NCBI GenBank assembly: GCA_903921675.1
Contig: CAIXQW010000194.1
Span: forward strand, 1 to 39,405
Direction of reading: 5' to 3'
Source: an uncultured bacterium
GTDB lineage: Bacteria > Bacteroidota > Bacteroidia > Chitinophagales > Chitinophagaceae
Length of the DNA stretch: 39,405 bases
In this document: positions 15,812-26,146 of the stretch, in pieces
Layout of the letters: each line of letters opens with the position of its first letter
Numbering within the stretch: position 1 is the first letter of the stretch
Translations under genes and position numbers: made by a program
The notes under the pieces: generated by a model
What the model saw: only the letters and a program-made list of their open reading frames with translations
The model's database searches: none
Told to the model about the DNA's origin: nothing

Positions 15812-18800
15812 ATGCAAAATAATAACTTAGCAATTTTACAAGGAACATGTATTCCAGAAATTTTAGCACCAACTACTCTAACTGCCTTATTGCAAGAAGC
15901 ATTTATAATGCATGCAAATAACAAGGCAATTGTTTTTGAAAACACGAGTTTTACTTATGCAGATATAGATAATTGGAGCAATGCATGTGCAGCAGATATA
16001 ATAGCCAAAGGCGCACAGGTTGGTGATTGTATTGGGGTATGGTATCCTAGAAGTGTGCAGCTACACATAGCAATATTAGGAATTTTAAAAGCAGGCTGTA
16101 CTTATATGCCTTTTGATGATGAAATGCCAGCAGATAGAGTGCAAGGTGTATTGCAGGATGTACAAGCTAAATTTTGTTTCACAAAAAATACACTTACTAT
16201 TCCTTGCTATACCTTAGAAGTAGTTGCACTGCCAACAGAAAAAATTAGTTTGCCTAGTATATCTATTACGCCAAAGCAACCTGCTTATATATTATTTACA
16301 AGTGGTAGCACAGGTAAGCCAAAGGGCATTCCTATTTCGCAATTTCAGATAGCACATTTGGTGCAAGCAGAGCAACACATTTTACAAATAAAGCCAACAG
16401 ATAAAGTGTACCAAGGTTTTAGTGTAAGCTTTGATATGTGGTGCGAAGAAACTTTCATTAGTTTTTTTGCAGGTGCTTGTATTTATGTGGCTACTGCTAC
16501 TAATGCAAAAGCTATTGACGAAGTAGGTGCAATGCTCAATAAATTAAAAATTACAGTATTACATGCAGTACCTAGTTTGCTTGCAGTAATAGAGGAAAGT
16601 ATACCAACACTAAGAATTGTAAATGCTGGTGGCGAAGCATGCACTACACCTGTTTTGCAAAAATGGAGTACACCAAACATTACATTTTACAATAGTTATG
16701 GACCAACAGAAACTACTGTTACTAGCAGTATGATTGCTTTGCAGCCCAATGACACGATTACTATTGGGCATCCATTGCCCAACTATTATTATGCAATAGT
16801 AGATGAAACAAATAATATAGTTCCACTAGGTGTGCAAGGCGAATTAATAATTACAGGTGCTGGAGTTGGCACACAATATTTACATCTGCCAGAATTAACT
16901 ACACAAAAATTTATTCCAAATCATTTGCAAGAATATGGCCTGCAAGGCGATACGATATACAAAACCGGTGATGATGCAATAATAAATGCAGATGGTACAG
17001 TTACCTATATCGGTAGGCAAGATGACCAAGTAAAAATTCGTGGCTACAGAATAGAATTAGGTGAAATAGAAAATCAATTGGCGCAATGTACTGGTGTAAA
17101 TACTTGTGCCATTAAAGTACAAAAAGACCAATTGCTGCAAGACCATTTGATTGGCTATGTAGTGCCCAATAAAAATGAAACAATTGTTCAAGAAAATATT
17201 CAACATCAATTACAAAAGGTATTGGCACCTTATATGATGCCTAAAGAAATAATTGTGTTGGATGAAATGCCACGCTTACCTAGTGGCAAAATCAATAGAA
17301 AATTATTACCTATTCCAACTGCCTTTACTGTACCAATGGACAATAGCACTTTTACTTTTGATGCAAATACATCTATCAAAGAAAAAGTTTTAAAAACGTT
17401 GCATCATTTTTTTACAGATAAAGACATAGACGACAACAAAGATTTTTTTACAGACCTCAATGGACATAGCCTATTGGCAGCAGGCTTTGTAAGTCGCTTA
17501 CGCAAAGATGCTGGTATTACACATGCTAGCCTTAGAGATGTGTATGCGCACAGACCTTTGCGCAATTTAATAACCGAATGGGAGAAAGACCAAGTTGTAA
17601 GCACAGCAGAAAAAACTGCATTTCAACCCATATCTAAAATGCGCCATAGATTGTGTTGGCTAGCGCAAACTTTTGCATTGTTTATTATTTATGGATTGTT
17701 TGCATCGCAAATTTATTTACCATACTTGGGTTACTATTATGTGCAAACAGAAACCGAAAGTCATACTCTGGGTGTGCTAGCTTCTATTGGTTTGTTTTGC
17801 TTAGTACCTCCGGCATTATCACTTGTAAGTATTATTACCAAATGGATATTGATAGGCCGCTACAAAGCTGGTGAATATCCGCTGTGGGGAATTTATTATT
17901 TTAAATGGTGGTTTGTAGAAAAATTAGAAAGTTTGGTGCAAATAAATTTCTTGAATGGCACACCAATATATAGAGCCTACCTGCGCTTAAAAGGCTGCAC
18001 CATAGGCGCAGATGCACAGTTTGGCCCACTGCAAATGCAAGCAGAAGATTTAATAGAAATTGGTGCCAATGTTAGTATTAGTTCTGGTGTGTTATTTAAT
18101 AATGTAGTGGTAGAAGATGGGCTTGTAAAATTTACAGAAATAAAAATTGGCAATCATGCTTATGTTGGTAGCAACTGCATCATCAATGGCAATACTGTAA
18201 TAGAAGATTGGGGAGAGTTGAAAGATTTAAGCCTGATGCAAAGTGGCACAACCATTCAAAAAGGTGAAGAATGGGGAGGAAGCCCATGCGCAAAAGTTGG
18301 TAATAAAGAAGCTGCAGAAATGCAAGCACCACCTACTACCCCACAATGGAAAAAAAATTATTACTTTGCAAGATTTTCTGCATTGCTGATTATATTTCCG
18401 GTAGCTATTTTGTTGCCATTGGTACCTGTAATAACGGCAGTAACAGAGCTAGACAATGCAGCAGATGATTACGACTTTAGCTATTTTGTATGGATACCAC
18501 TTTTATCTTTGCTATACATGACGCTTTTTGCATTGCAAACTATTATCGTCAATAAAATTTTAACTCGCAATATTAAGCCAGGCATCTACTCTATTTACAG
18601 CCCTACTTATTTTAAAAAATGGTTGAGTGATCAGTTTCTTACATTGTCATTAATCATCATGCATCCATTGTTTGCCACAGTTTATGTAAGTGCATTTTTC
18701 AGAGCATTAGGTGCAAAAATTGGTAAATACACAGAAATTTCTACAGCCAATAATGTAAGCCATGTATTGTTAGAAATTGGTGATAATAGTTTTATAGCAG

Positions 18801-19747
18801 ATAATGTAAACCTTGGTGAAAGCGATGTGCGCAATCAAACATTGATATTAGAAAAAACAAAGATTGGCAATAAAACTTTTGTAGGCAATAGTGCGCATGT
18901 GCCGCAAGGTTATACTTTGGGCAACGATATGTTGATAGGCGTTTTAAGTTTGCCACCAACTCCAGAACAGTTGCTATCCAACGACAGCAAAGATTGGTTT
19001 GGCTCGCCGGCTGTAGCCTTGCCACGCAGACAAGATAGCGGCATTTATGATAGTACACTTACACACAGACCAAGTAAAAGAGTTTGGTTAGCTAGGGCTA
19101 CTATAGAATTGATTCGCATTATACTACCAGAAACTATTTTGCTAATGGCAAGCTTTTTATTTATTGCTTATGTGCATGATGTATTAATGGAAAATACTTG
19201 GTGGCAGTTTATTTTATTATACCCAATTTACTTTTTTGTATTTATTGCCTTTCCTTGTTTTGCTATTACAGTTATTTTAAAATGGTTGGTGGTAGGCAAA
19301 TACAAACCTGCATCTTGGCCAATGTGGAACTACAAAGTATGGTGCAGCGAAGCTATTACAAGCGTGTATGAATCTGTAGCTGTGCCATTTTTTCTAGAGC
19401 ATTTAAAAGGCACACCTTGGCTACCAATTTGCTTAAGAGCATTTGGTGTAAAAACCGGCAAACGAATTTATTTAGATACAACAGATTTTACAGAACATGA
19501 TTTAACAAGTATAGCAGACGAAGCTATGCTAAATGCCGACTGCGGCCCACAAACACATTTGTTTGAAGATAGAGTAATGAAAATGGGTACCATACATATA
19601 GGTAAACGCACAAAAATTGGTGCAGGTACTATTATATTATACGATACGGTAATAGGCGACGAAGTAAAAATAGAAAGCCTAAGCCTAGTAATGAAAGGCG
19701 AGCATTTAATGGATAGCACAAATTGGAATGGGAATCCGTTGAGGTAA
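15812..19747 (+). CDS. Membrane single-module NRPS of Pls/PosA type (A-T-6TM with three beta-helix domains)
   Basis: A 1311-residue nonribosomal peptide synthetase with no condensation or thioesterase domain. The adenylation domain (about 1-500) has LFTSGSTGKPKG (161-172), NSYGPTE (294-300), KTGD (384-387), GRQDDQVKIRGYRIELGEIE (401-420) and LPSGKINRK (489-497). The carrier domain has DLNGHSLLAA with the phosphopantetheine serine S553. Three membrane pairs follow (about 614-640/653-682, 852-878/890-914, 1100-1122/1131-1162). Each pair precedes a hexapeptide left-handed beta-helix domain (about 720-830, 960-1060, 1210-1311). This matches epsilon-poly-L-lysine synthetase and the NRPS-terminal family TIGR02353. 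By alignment to GrsA, I read the pocket as D208 M209 E212 S255 V270 A272 S295 V303 T304 K493. The acidic residue and Ser suggest a basic amino acid such as lysine or ornithine. The product is unknown. Confidence 0.9.
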   Translation: MQNNNLAILQGTCIPEILAPTTLTALLQEAFIMHANNKAIVFENTSFTYADIDNWSNACAADIIAKGAQVGDCIGVWYPRSVQLHIAILGILKAGCTYMPFDDEMPADRVQGVLQDVQAKFCFTKNTLTIPCYTLEVVALPTEKISLPSISITPKQPAYILFTSGSTGKPKGIPISQFQIAHLVQAEQHILQIKPTDKVYQGFSVSFDMWCEETFISFFAGACIYVATATNAKAIDEVGAMLNKLKITVLHAVPSLLAVIEESIPTLRIVNAGGEACTTPVLQKWSTPNITFYNSYGPTETTVTSSMIALQPNDTITIGHPLPNYYYAIVDETNNIVPLGVQGELIITGAGVGTQYLHLPELTTQKFIPNHLQEYGLQGDTIYKTGDDAIINADGTVTYIGRQDDQVKIRGYRIELGEIENQLAQCTGVNTCAIKVQKDQLLQDHLIGYVVPNKNETIVQENIQHQLQKVLAPYMMPKEIIVLDEMPRLPSGKINRKLLPIPTAFTVPMDNSTFTFDANTSIKEKVLKTLHHFFTDKDIDDNKDFFTDLNGHSLLAAGFVSRLRKDAGITHASLRDVYAHRPLRNLITEWEKDQVVSTAEKTAFQPISKMRHRLCWLAQTFALFIIYGLFASQIYLPYLGYYYVQTETESHTLGVLASIGLFCLVPPALSLVSIITKWILIGRYKAGEYPLWGIYYFKWWFVEKLESLVQINFLNGTPIYRAYLRLKGCTIGADAQFGPLQMQAEDLIEIGANVSISSGVLFNNVVVEDGLVKFTEIKIGNHAYVGSNCIINGNTVIEDWGELKDLSLMQSGTTIQKGEEWGGSPCAKVGNKEAAEMQAPPTTPQWKKNYYFARFSALLIIFPVAILLPLVPVITAVTELDNAADDYDFSYFVWIPLLSLLYMTLFALQTIIVNKILTRNIKPGIYSIYSPTYFKKWLSDQFLTLSLIIMHPLFATVYVSAFFRALGAKIGKYTEISTANNVSHVLLEIGDNSFIADNVNLGESDVRNQTLILEKTKIGNKTFVGNSAHVPQGYTLGNDMLIGVLSLPPTPEQLLSNDSKDWFGSPAVALPRRQDSGIYDSTLTHRPSKRVWLARATIELIRIILPETILLMASFLFIAYVHDVLMENTWWQFILLYPIYFFVFIAFPCFAITVILKWLVVGKYKPASWPMWNYKVWCSEAITSVYESVAVPFFLEHLKGTPWLPICLRAFGVKTGKRIYLDTTDFTEHDLTSIADEAMLNADCGPQTHLFEDRVMKMGTIHIGKRTKIGAGTIILYDTVIGDEVKIESLSLVMKGEHLMDSTNWNGNPLR

Positions 19748-19758
19748 TTAGCATTTTG

Positions 19759-19863
19759 CAATTAACAATTAACAATGGGCAATTATCAATTTTCAATTAT
19801 CAATTATTAATTATTAATGTGCAATTCTCAATTCTCAATTTTCAATTTTCAATTAGCAATTTG
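19759..19863. repeat. Tandem heptamer array, 15 units of CAATTnn
   Basis: Between the NRPS stop and prfB the sequence keeps a strict 7-bp period over 105 bp. Reading from 19759 the units are CAATTAA, CAATTAA, CAATGGG, CAATTAT, CAATTTT, CAATTAT, CAATTAT, TAATTAT, TAATGTG, CAATTCT, CAATTCT, CAATTTT, CAATTTT, CAATTAG and CAATTTG. The first five bases are nearly fixed and the last two vary freely. That is unlike a simple slippage repeat with identical units. There are no spacers, so it is not a CRISPR array, and no ORF runs through it. Confidence 0.9.
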
Positions 19864-19955: not shown

Positions 19956-19963
19956 TACTTTTG
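19956..19963 (+). promoter_or_regulatory. -7 promoter element TACTTTTG for prfB
   Basis: Exact TAnnTTTG match whose last base is 8 nt before the prfB ATG at 19972. Initiation about 7 nt downstream would leave almost no 5' leader and no room for a Shine-Dalgarno sequence. Confidence 0.55.
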
Positions 19964-19971
19964 CAATCGCT

Positions 19972-21048
19972 ATGACTATAGAGCAACTGAAAGAATTACG
20001 AGATAGAGAATCTGCCCTGCGCAGTTATTTGGCAATAGACGAAAGACTAGAAAAAATAGCCAACGACAAAGCATTGAGTGTAAGCGATGGTTTTTGGGAT
20101 GATAATAAACGCGCTACAGAAATTATTAAAGAAATTAATAAGAATGAATATTGGGTAAAATTGTATCAGCAAACCAAAGATGCAATTGATGATTTTGCAA
20201 TACTATTTGAATGTTGGAAAGATGGAGATAGCACAGAAGAAGAAACCAAATTGGCTTTTGATAAATGCAAAGAAGCCATAGAAACATGCGAATTTAAAAG
20301 CACACTCAATCAGCCCGAAGATGAGATGCATGCCGTAATGGTAATTAATAGTGGCGCAGGTGGCACAGAAAGCCAAGATTGGGCAGAGATGCTACTACGC
20401 ATGTACAAAATGTATGGCGATAAGCAAGGCTGGAAAGTAAGCGAAATAGATATTCAGTGGGGAGATGGCGCAGGCATTAAACAGGCTACACTAGAGTTTG
20501 AAGGCGAGTATAGCTATGGCTTATTAAAGGCAGAAAGTGGTGTGCACCGCCTAGTGCGCATTAGCCCATTTGATAGCAATGCGCGCAGGCATACTAGCTT
20601 TGCCAGTGTGTTTGTATACCCGCTAATAGATAATAGTATAGAAATAGAAGTAAACCCCGCTGACTGCGATTGGGATTTTTTCCGAAGTGGTGGTAGTGGT
20701 GGCCAAAATGTAAATAAAGTAGAAACCGCAGTGCGCCTAAAGCATAAGCCTAGTGGCATTATTGTAGAGTGCCAACAAGCCCGCACCCAAGGCGAAAACC
20801 GCGAGAAAGCCATGGCAATGCTAAAAAGCCAATTGTACGAATTGGAAATGCAAAAGCAACAAAGCCTAAAAGACGATGCCAATAGCAGTAAGAAAAAAAT
20901 TGAATGGGGCAGCCAAATACGCAGCTACGTTTTTCATCCATACAAAATGATAAAAGACCACCGCACCGATTACGAAGTAGGTAATGTAGGACCTGTGATG
21001 GATGGCGAGTTAGATGGATTTATTAAGGCGTATTTGATGGCGAATTAG
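19972..21048 (+). CDS. prfB: Peptide chain release factor 2
   Basis: RF2, 358 residues, releases completed chains at UGA and UAA stop codons on the ribosome. The SPF anticodon-like tripeptide (198-200, in VRISPFDSN) separates it from RF1, and the catalytic GGQ is at 243-245. The reading frame is continuous from ATG. At the place where many RF2 genes carry an in-frame TGA and the programmed +1 frameshift (after LRxYL), this gene reads LRSYLAIDE with no TGA. Autoregulation by frameshifting is therefore absent. The start follows a promoter element by 8 nt. The upstream heptamer array separates it from the NRPS gene. Confidence 0.96.
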
Positions 21049-24118: not shown

Positions 24119-26146
24119 TTATCTTACAAGCAATACATTACCATTGCGCTTTACCTTTCTGCCATTTAAGCAAATACCTTCTGCTATCCAAACATAAGTG
24201 CCAAGGTCTTGCGGCATGCCATTATAGGTACCATCCCACTTGCGGTTTGGATCTGTAGTTTCAAATACCATTTGGCCAAAACGATTAAAAATTCTAAAAA
24301 AGGTTAATTGTTTTAATTGATAATTGGCAAGTCCAAAAGATCTATTCAACTGATCTGGGCTTGTAGGGTTAAATGCATTTGGGCAATTGATATCACCACA
24401 AGATGTATTTACAGCCACAGTATCGTAGCGCACACAACCATCTGCATTTACTACTTTTACATAATAAAACTGCACAGAATCTACTGGTCTTACATTAGGG
24501 TAAGCTACATCACTAATATTATTTTCGAAATACAAATTTGGTGTCCATAAATATTTAAACTGATAGCCTTGACTCATTTTTGGTCCACCCAATTGGGTAG
24601 AAGCACCATCTGCTACAATTCTATCTGGGCCAGCATCTGCTTTAATTTTACTCACTTTTACATTTACCATAGTATCTACAATACAACCATAGTCGTAAGT
24701 CATTCTTACATGGTAAGTGTAATCTTCTTCTGGAAACACATACACACTTGTAGTGTCATTTCTGTATATCAAATTGTAAGTAGGATCCCATAATATTTTA
24801 CTTAAAAGGTTGCCATTAGCTACCATAAATAAAGTATCTCCTTGGCAAAGCATAGTATCTGCAGTTAAATCTATTTTTGGCTTAGCTAATACCTGTATGC
24901 GATGTTGCTCTTGGTTTTCTTTACCATTGCTATCTACTGTTACAAAATACACATTATACAATCCTGGCTTAGTATAGTAATAAGTAGGTATTTGATTAGT
25001 AGTATCTTTTAATACACTAGCATTAGCACTAGAGTCGTAATGCACTATGCTTATGGTATTGGTTTGGTAATTAGTTACAAAACCATACACATTATCTTTT
25101 TGGCGAATTAATTCTGTAATACCACGCGGACCATTGAATGCAGCAAAGTTACCTAGGCTGCTCACTACTGGTACATTAGAGATATTGCTACCAAATTTTA
25201 AACTAATCAATTCGTTGGTAGCTTCATTACTTACATAGCCATAAAATTTTTCATCGTCTTTGCTGATATTAATGTATCGTGGCGATTTAAAAATGTTACC
25301 AAAATTACCTAAAGGAAATACCGCAGGAGTATTTAGCATAGATGTACCAAAGTCTAAACGAGTAAGTGTAGATGATAAACGATTTACCACAAAACCGTAA
25401 TAGCTACCCAATTGTTGTACAAACTTCATTCCTGTAGGGAAAGATAAACCACCTGGGTTACCTAAGTCTGTTAAAGTAGGAGTGCTAGTAAGGTTTGCAC
25501 CAAAGTCTAAACGCACTAAATGAGCACTTAAACCATTTAAAGTATAAGCATACCAATTGCCATTTTCTTTAAACAAATGAATATCTTCTGGGCTAATTAA
25601 AAGGCCTGAAAGGTTTAATAAATCTGTTACAATTGGTGTGTTGGTAAGCGAATTGCCAAACTCTAATCTTGTTAATTGTGTATTTACACCAATACCACCA
25701 ATTGCATATCCAATCCAATTTCCTCTGTCGTTTACAATATCAATACCAGTACATTTTTCAGGAATATCGCCAGTAAAATTACCCAAATCTACAGGAGTAG
25801 GAAGGTTTTTAAGATTTGCGCCTACATCATAGCGAATCAGGTTGAAAGGGGCATCGTAGTTTACTGTAAATAAATAATATTTGCCATTTTGCTCTTCTAA
25901 AGTAATAGGCGTAGGCCCACCCAAAGGCGCATTGCTAGCTATTACACCGCCTTTTGGCTGACGCTCTAACCATGCACTGCATGTACCCCAATAATAGCTT
26001 GCCGCATTTTTGGTGGTAGATAATAAATTTACATCTTGCATTATGCAAACTGTATCCGGATACGTCATTGTATTGAGCTGCGCTTGCACACTAGTGCTAG
26101 AGATAAACAATACAAATATGCCTAAAGCCTTAATAATTCTATTCAT
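24119..26146 (-). CDS. T9SS type B sorting-domain protein with a six-repeat propeller
   Basis: A 675-residue surface or secreted protein. After the signal peptide (1-23, ending VQAQ) comes a propeller of six repeats of the form LxRLDFGxxLxNTPxxxDLGN. They lie at about residues 102, 157, 209, 260, 312 and, degenerate, 363, a period of 51-55 residues. PKD-like/Ig-like modules follow at about 385-500 and 500-580. The C-terminal 85 residues (CPNAFNPTSPDQLNRSF ... FNRFGQMVFETTDPNRKWDGTYNG ... YVWI) are a gliding-motility-type CHU_C domain. That domain is the type B signal for type IX secretion. The ligand or enzymatic role is unknown; no catalytic motif was seen. Confidence 0.9.
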   Translation of the reverse strand: MNRIIKALGIFVLFISSTSVQAQLNTMTYPDTVCIMQDVNLLSTTKNAASYYWGTCSAWLERQPKGGVIASNAPLGGPTPITLEEQNGKYYLFTVNYDAPFNLIRYDVGANLKNLPTPVDLGNFTGDIPEKCTGIDIVNDRGNWIGYAIGGIGVNTQLTRLEFGNSLTNTPIVTDLLNLSGLLISPEDIHLFKENGNWYAYTLNGLSAHLVRLDFGANLTSTPTLTDLGNPGGLSFPTGMKFVQQLGSYYGFVVNRLSSTLTRLDFGTSMLNTPAVFPLGNFGNIFKSPRYINISKDDEKFYGYVSNEATNELISLKFGSNISNVPVVSSLGNFAAFNGPRGITELIRQKDNVYGFVTNYQTNTISIVHYDSSANASVLKDTTNQIPTYYYTKPGLYNVYFVTVDSNGKENQEQHRIQVLAKPKIDLTADTMLCQGDTLFMVANGNLLSKILWDPTYNLIYRNDTTSVYVFPEEDYTYHVRMTYDYGCIVDTMVNVKVSKIKADAGPDRIVADGASTQLGGPKMSQGYQFKYLWTPNLYFENNISDVAYPNVRPVDSVQFYYVKVVNADGCVRYDTVAVNTSCGDINCPNAFNPTSPDQLNRSFGLANYQLKQLTFFRIFNRFGQMVFETTDPNRKWDGTYNGMPQDLGTYVWIAEGICLNGRKVKRNGNVLLVR

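Follow-up and report, generated by a model that had tools for sequence, protein, structure and literature searches.

The 39,405-nucleotide stretch of DNA analysed here, referred to as the window, contains a run of degenerate 7-bp units between a large synthetase gene and the gene for peptide chain release factor 2. The features discussed are as follows:

15812..19747, + strand: synthetase of 1311 aa with AMP-binding and PP-binding domains and C-terminal hexapeptide repeats; its 3' end bears the array
19745..19747, + strand: TAA stop codon of the synthetase gene, inside the first array unit TAATTAG
19745..19863, + strand: degenerate heptamer array of 17 units in register, with core CAATT (C/T-A-A-T-T/G followed by two variable bases)
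19956..19963, + strand: TACTTTTG, likely promoter box of prfB, which fits the Bacteroidota -7 consensus TAnnTTTG
19972..21048, + strand: prfB, peptide chain release factor 2, 358 aa in a single frame, with PCRF and RF-1 domains

Inspection of the sequence finds a strict 7-bp register throughout the array. Its first half reads TAATTAG, CATTTTG, CAATTAA, CAATTAA, CAATGGG, CAATTAT, CAATTTT, CAATTAT, CAATTAT, and its second half TAATTAT, TAATGTG, CAATTCT, CAATTCT, CAATTTT, CAATTTT, CAATTAG, CAATTTG. The initial annotation had given 15 units, 12 of them an exact CAATTNN (the exceptions being CAATGGG, TAATTAT and TAATGTG). These units and their strict register are correct, but two more in-register units lie upstream (TAATTAG and CATTTTG), which brings the number to 17 and moves the array start to 19745, where the stop codon of the 1311-aa gene begins. 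Tandem Repeats Finder describes the array as 14.7 copies of a period of 7 with the consensus CAATTAT and 80% matches between units, two of the seven positions varying freely.

The array is confirmed as a real feature, beyond chance. A three-unit pattern with one mismatch allowed has 12 matches in the window, of which 11 fall within the array, and the same pattern gives a mean of 0.07 matches and a maximum of 1 in shuffles of the window. Shuffled DNA, which the initial annotation had proposed as the control that might yield comparable arrays, does not do so: the top score in 1.6 Mb of shuffled DNA of the same genome is 20.4, against 122.7 for the array.

The units also carry some record of their history. 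The units deviate from their consensus in 23 places, and the five core columns account for just 6 of these (p about 5e-5); the core is therefore not drifting as the last two bases are, and the earlier description of a fixed CAATT core followed by two variable bases holds. Identical adjacent units occur 4 times compared with 0.9 in shuffled unit orders (p about 0.005), making them about four times commoner. This excess is a trace that points to single-unit duplication, and the earlier statement that recent slippage did not produce the array is in this respect only half right.

Flanking genes and the relation to prfB

The upstream gene had been called an NRPS gene. The protein is indeed a synthetase, with a single module of AMP-binding, PP-binding and hexapeptide-repeat domains, and not a classical multimodular NRPS. 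The downstream gene, prfB, is read in a single frame (358 aa) and lacks the programmed frameshift that is known in prfB from many bacteria. Elsewhere in the window, 24119-26146 encodes a 675-aa protein that ends in a CHU_C type IX secretion domain, which fits Bacteroidota. Together with gene content and composition, this domain suggests a Chitinophagaceae-like family.

The array had been placed just upstream of prfB, which is a loose description: 108 bp separate its end from the prfB ATG, and its first unit holds the synthetase stop codon. The -7 promoter consensus of Bacteroidota is TAnnTTTG, and TACTTTTG at 19956-19963, whose end is 8 bp from the prfB ATG, is presumably the -7 box of prfB. 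From the position of this box, the array, about 93 bp upstream of it, probably lies outside the prfB message. No terminator-like site was found in a search for an intrinsic terminator between the array and prfB, and an Rfam scan of the array gave no match up to E = 1. The link with prfB is weak, and the anatomical link is with the upstream stop codon. A conserved element on the prfB side was also considered and rejected: the closest relatives examined have the synthetase without prfB next to it, and their 3' flanks differ.

Synthetase orthologues are present in 21 of 130 genomes, including the genome of the window, and a scan of genome contigs with the synthetase gave distant matches only. In the three closest relatives examined the synthetase has 60-62% identity and ends in ...GSPLRPSKK or PSKN, whereas the synthetase of the window ends in ...GNPLR; its C terminus comes four residues sooner, just where the array begins. 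The synthetase 3' flanks at two loci (L312 and L313) have no array. At another (L252), five AATNNNN units, four of them AATTGTN, lie within ten bases of the stop codon in the opposite polarity. Because the 3' flanks of relatives carry either no array or a different one, the array is lineage-specific, having arisen or been replaced in this lineage; a relative seems to have acquired an array at this gene end independently. At three synthetase orthologues (L255, L256 and L259), other degenerate short-period repeats with different motifs directly follow the stop.

Arrays in the same genome and in related genomes

Statements about the genome of the window are based on a pattern search and on about 478 kb of fetched stretches, in which ORFs were called mechanically and not by a gene finder; distances on the start side are rough. 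Four consecutive CAATTNN units, with up to three mismatches, have 100 matches in the 2.57-Mb draft versus 2 for a reversed control pattern. The initial annotation had treated a lack of other arrays, combined with a lack of conservation, as evidence against its proposal of a short dispersed heptameric repeat family with no agreed function; other arrays do occur in the genome, and the window array is a member of such a family. When the fetched loci were scored, 19 arrays including that of the window reached at least 26 (top shuffled score 20.4), and the others, about 18 in the draft, are of the CAAT[T/G]NN type. Draft assemblies probably break on arrays, so that such counts are underestimates.

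Most arrays of this genome touch the edge of an ORF, usually at the stop codon. Eight of the 16 arrays with both flanking ORFs lie, in CAATT sense, no more than 10 nt from a stop codon, compared with 2.6 expected from random placement within the same gaps. A tally of edge-touching arrays has the CAATT strand running outward from the gene in 14 of 15 and inward in one (binomial p 5e-4). At five stop-side arrays the ORF ends AAT-TAG or AAT-TAA, and the stop is provided by the array itself. None of 83 3' flanks in an unselected sample carries an array, and arrays are therefore sparse in this genome. Beside its other arrays no clear inverted pairs were seen. In four of its arrays, units of CAATTAR and CAATGNN alternate to give a 14-nt string with ATG-NNC-AAT-TAR mini-frames. 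Arrays near contig ends were noted at the start of contig C143, at the end of contig C275 and at a contig start in genome G031.

Related genomes contain similar arrays, in some cases many more. A four-unit array with up to one mismatch is found in 142 of 399 genomes of the same family, a few of them being very rich, such as G010 (222 matches) and G079 (205 matches); the control gives 0. Across the phylum, the CAATT form has a scattered distribution, occurring in 22 of 198 genomes. The arrays of G010 and G079 mostly begin on a stop codon as TAATTGAAAATTGAAAGTTGAAAATTG, with the AATTG strand outward, which is opposite to the polarity in the genome of the window; tallies with computed binomials give this orientation for 56 of 62 arrays in G010 and 54 of 61 in G079.

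A 400-kb grid sample of G010, in which 86% of the DNA is coding, contains 81 intergenic and 5 coding arrays at lag 7. It also contains 35 intergenic arrays at lag 8 and 6 at lag 9, with zero at periods 4-6 or 10-11 and zero in shuffles; among the periods, only 7 and 8 stand out. The motifs are many, including AATTGAA, AATTAAG/AATTAGG, AATTAAT, GAGTTGA, TTGTTAG, AAAAGTC and GCGTTAA. Placement is similar to that described above, with 46 of 108 arrays no more than 10 nt from a stop (9.7 expected). Of 59 edge arrays, 55 have their purine-rich strand facing outward, compared with an about even split in array-free flanks. These trends are repeated in a family sample of 39 stretches, most of them from other genomes of the family, in which 10 of 30 arrays are within 10 nt of a stop (3.5 expected). 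The purine-outward rule holds in both G010 and the family sample; it fails in the genome of the window, where outward purine content is 0.38-0.62. Octamer arrays (such as ATAACTGA, GTCTTACG and AGTTGACC) at three loci of the family sample have the same intergenic habit.

Neighbouring arrays in G010 are mostly inverted. In 26 of 30 cases they form intergenic inverted pairs with spacers of 15-270 nt, and copies of the complete paired unit, about 147 bp long, are found across the genus of G010 with 70-80% identity. Inverted pairs were seen in G010 and its congeners at L155, L162, L231, L249 and L263-L272. One paired-unit locus (L266/L267/L271) is kept in place in three species, and its arms look less diverged than its spacer.

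Origin and possible roles of the array

The explanation that we favour, with a little more than even confidence, is that the array is a gene-edge heptamer repeat which originated at the synthetase stop codon, grew outward by duplication and does not regulate prfB. Seeding at the stop codon would have been followed by growth away from the gene in 7-nt steps through tandem duplication, either by slippage or by unequal recombination. Point changes would then gather mainly in the two non-core bases, and recombination or copying among the roughly 19 arrays of the genome, or weak selection, may keep the CAATT core common. On this account the array is part of the untranslated 3' region of the synthetase mRNA, and it provides that gene with its stop codon. 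It may have been retained since it is harmless to both neighbours, in untranslated sequence away from promoters. Most likely it does not act on prfB, and probably it has no regulatory role at all. The register, the stop-codon position, the polarity, the other arrays, the restriction to this lineage, the duplication of neighbouring units and the lack of RNA structure and of a terminator are observations; the mechanism of duplication and homogenisation and the lack of a regulatory role are what we infer. Rho stepping, footprints of transposon target-site duplications and tyrosine-recombinase cores are conceivable sources of a 7-nt period.

This passive account explains two facts least well, the constant polarity and the common core. 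Pure neutral slippage predicts neither of them, and dispersal, homogenisation or selection must therefore be added. Core columns that vary far less than the last two bases also fit selection for a binding site. These weak spots leave room for a protein that binds single-stranded nucleic acid and covers 7 nt, or for small palindromic elements of which the arrays would be arms.

The first of these would make the array an RNA element after the stop codon, coated by an OB-fold protein of the cold-shock or S1 type with a footprint of about 7 nt, with effects on the 3' end or the stability of the mRNA. CspB of Bacillus subtilis is reported to be able to bind heptamer direct repeats, one protein to each heptamer (MacGregor 2015, PMC4679880). 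In this genome arrays follow directly on stop codons and lie on the coding strand, which agrees with such a role, as does a core that is kept while two bases vary. The array RNA is also unstructured, its folding stability being no better than that of shuffles (z 0.13). However, the unselected 3' flanks indicate that arrays accompany just a small fraction of the genes in this genome, and arrays on the start side have the same outward polarity and hence the opposite RNA sequence. Motif and polarity also vary between related species. We regard an RNA element as unlikely, if worth keeping in view.

Arms of palindromic elements come next and are less probable still. The array would here be the solo arm of a non-autonomous dispersed element, REPIN- or MITE-like, either left behind or inserted alone. 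The inverted pairs of G010, with their spacers of limited length, resemble terminal inverted repeats, and the recurrence of the complete unit elsewhere in the genus is in keeping with this. The window array, however, has no inverted partner and clear pairs are lacking at the other arrays of its genome. Moreover, one transposase would not explain many motifs that obey the same rule, and there is one locus at which three species retain the element in place.

A cooperative protein-binding array on duplex DNA, as put forward in the initial annotation, could regulate prfB or the synthetase and would account for a fixed core every 7 bp. It seems very improbable: a 7-bp spacing puts successive cores on different faces of the helix, the array is tied to the stop codon of the synthetase gene and lies about 93 bp upstream of the likely prfB promoter box, and it is not common to relatives.

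The remaining two readings have next to no weight. Bent DNA, also suggested in the initial annotation on account of the AT-rich sequence with its AATT blocks, was rejected because blocks at 7-bp steps are spread round the helix without phasing (normalised vector sum 0.19 at 10.5 bp per turn), so that no net bend is expected. A three-frame stop cassette would exploit 7 mod 3 = 1, by which stop-containing heptamers terminate every frame, a property also noted for TAACTGA (MacGregor, PMC4679880), and several arrays of this genome do provide the actual stop codon, but the window array was rejected as such a cassette: its sense strand has 7 stops, below the 9.4 of shuffles, and one of the three frames contains no stop at all.

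Comparison with known heptamer repeats

Heptamers are over-represented among the long simple repeats of many bacteria, without an agreed function. We class the window array with the intergenic heptameric short tandem repeats (STRR, or long simple sequence repeats), a known kind: it is a 7-bp tandem beyond chance, and the arrays are intergenic and occupy many loci, as do the tandem 7-bp units of cyanobacteria and other bacteria (PMC4679880, PMC4692102). STRR as described are near-identical repeats of one unit, whereas the units of the window array share five nearly constant bases and vary freely at the other two. We do not see near-identical units as defining of STRR, and class the array as a degenerate member.

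Direct repeats of TAACTGA are found in Beggiatoaceae, cyanobacteria and a few Bacteroidetes, and binders of the cold-shock or S1 type have been proposed for them (MacGregor 2015, PMC4679880). Some TAACTGA arrays overlap the stop codons of upstream genes, and longer arrays occur in Bacteroidetes (PMC4679880). Both kinds are heptameric and intergenic, with some arrays on stop codons. The unit differs, however, and in the type genome most TAACTGA arrays lie only a few nt upstream of start codons, whereas the CAATTNN array of the window starts on a stop codon and keeps its distance from the prfB ATG. Two inverted arms around a spacer, characteristic of REPIN- or MITE-like elements, are absent at the window array and present in G010.

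The closest published parallel is provided by the G-rich heptamers GGGAATC and GGGGA(C/T)T of Xanthomonas and Nostoc, which lie near stops on the coding strand (PMC4692102, PLoS One 2015). Near starts they lie on the non-coding strand, and no function has been identified for them (PMC4692102). They form quadruplexes in vitro and prefer four units (PMC4692102). Like them, the arrays described here are heptameric, intergenic and dispersed, with one strand outward at both gene edges. Stop-proximal placement on one strand, with the opposite strand at starts, is found in the genome of the window and also in G010 and G079. The window array differs from the published repeats in its AT-rich sequence and its 17 degenerate units, and CAATTNN has no G tract from which a quadruplex unit could be formed.

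The placement rule thus extends to AT-rich heptamers without G tracts and to many motifs within one genome. In the literature searched, no description was found of a gene-edge rule in AT-rich, multi-motif heptamers, although one may exist. A preference for gene edges and for one strand in AT-rich heptamers that are not quadruplex-forming argues against the quadruplex explanation of placement. By extrapolation some genomes would have over a thousand arrays, and the question can be tested in them. We suggest tentatively, as a minority view, that a motif-independent gene-edge system exists, in which a dedicated process or a common selection builds arrays of 7- or 8-nt units from ORF edges, with one strand outward, out of any heptamer of the lineage; the repeats of Xanthomonas and Nostoc and the AT-rich repeats described here would then be one phenomenon, unrelated to quadruplexes.
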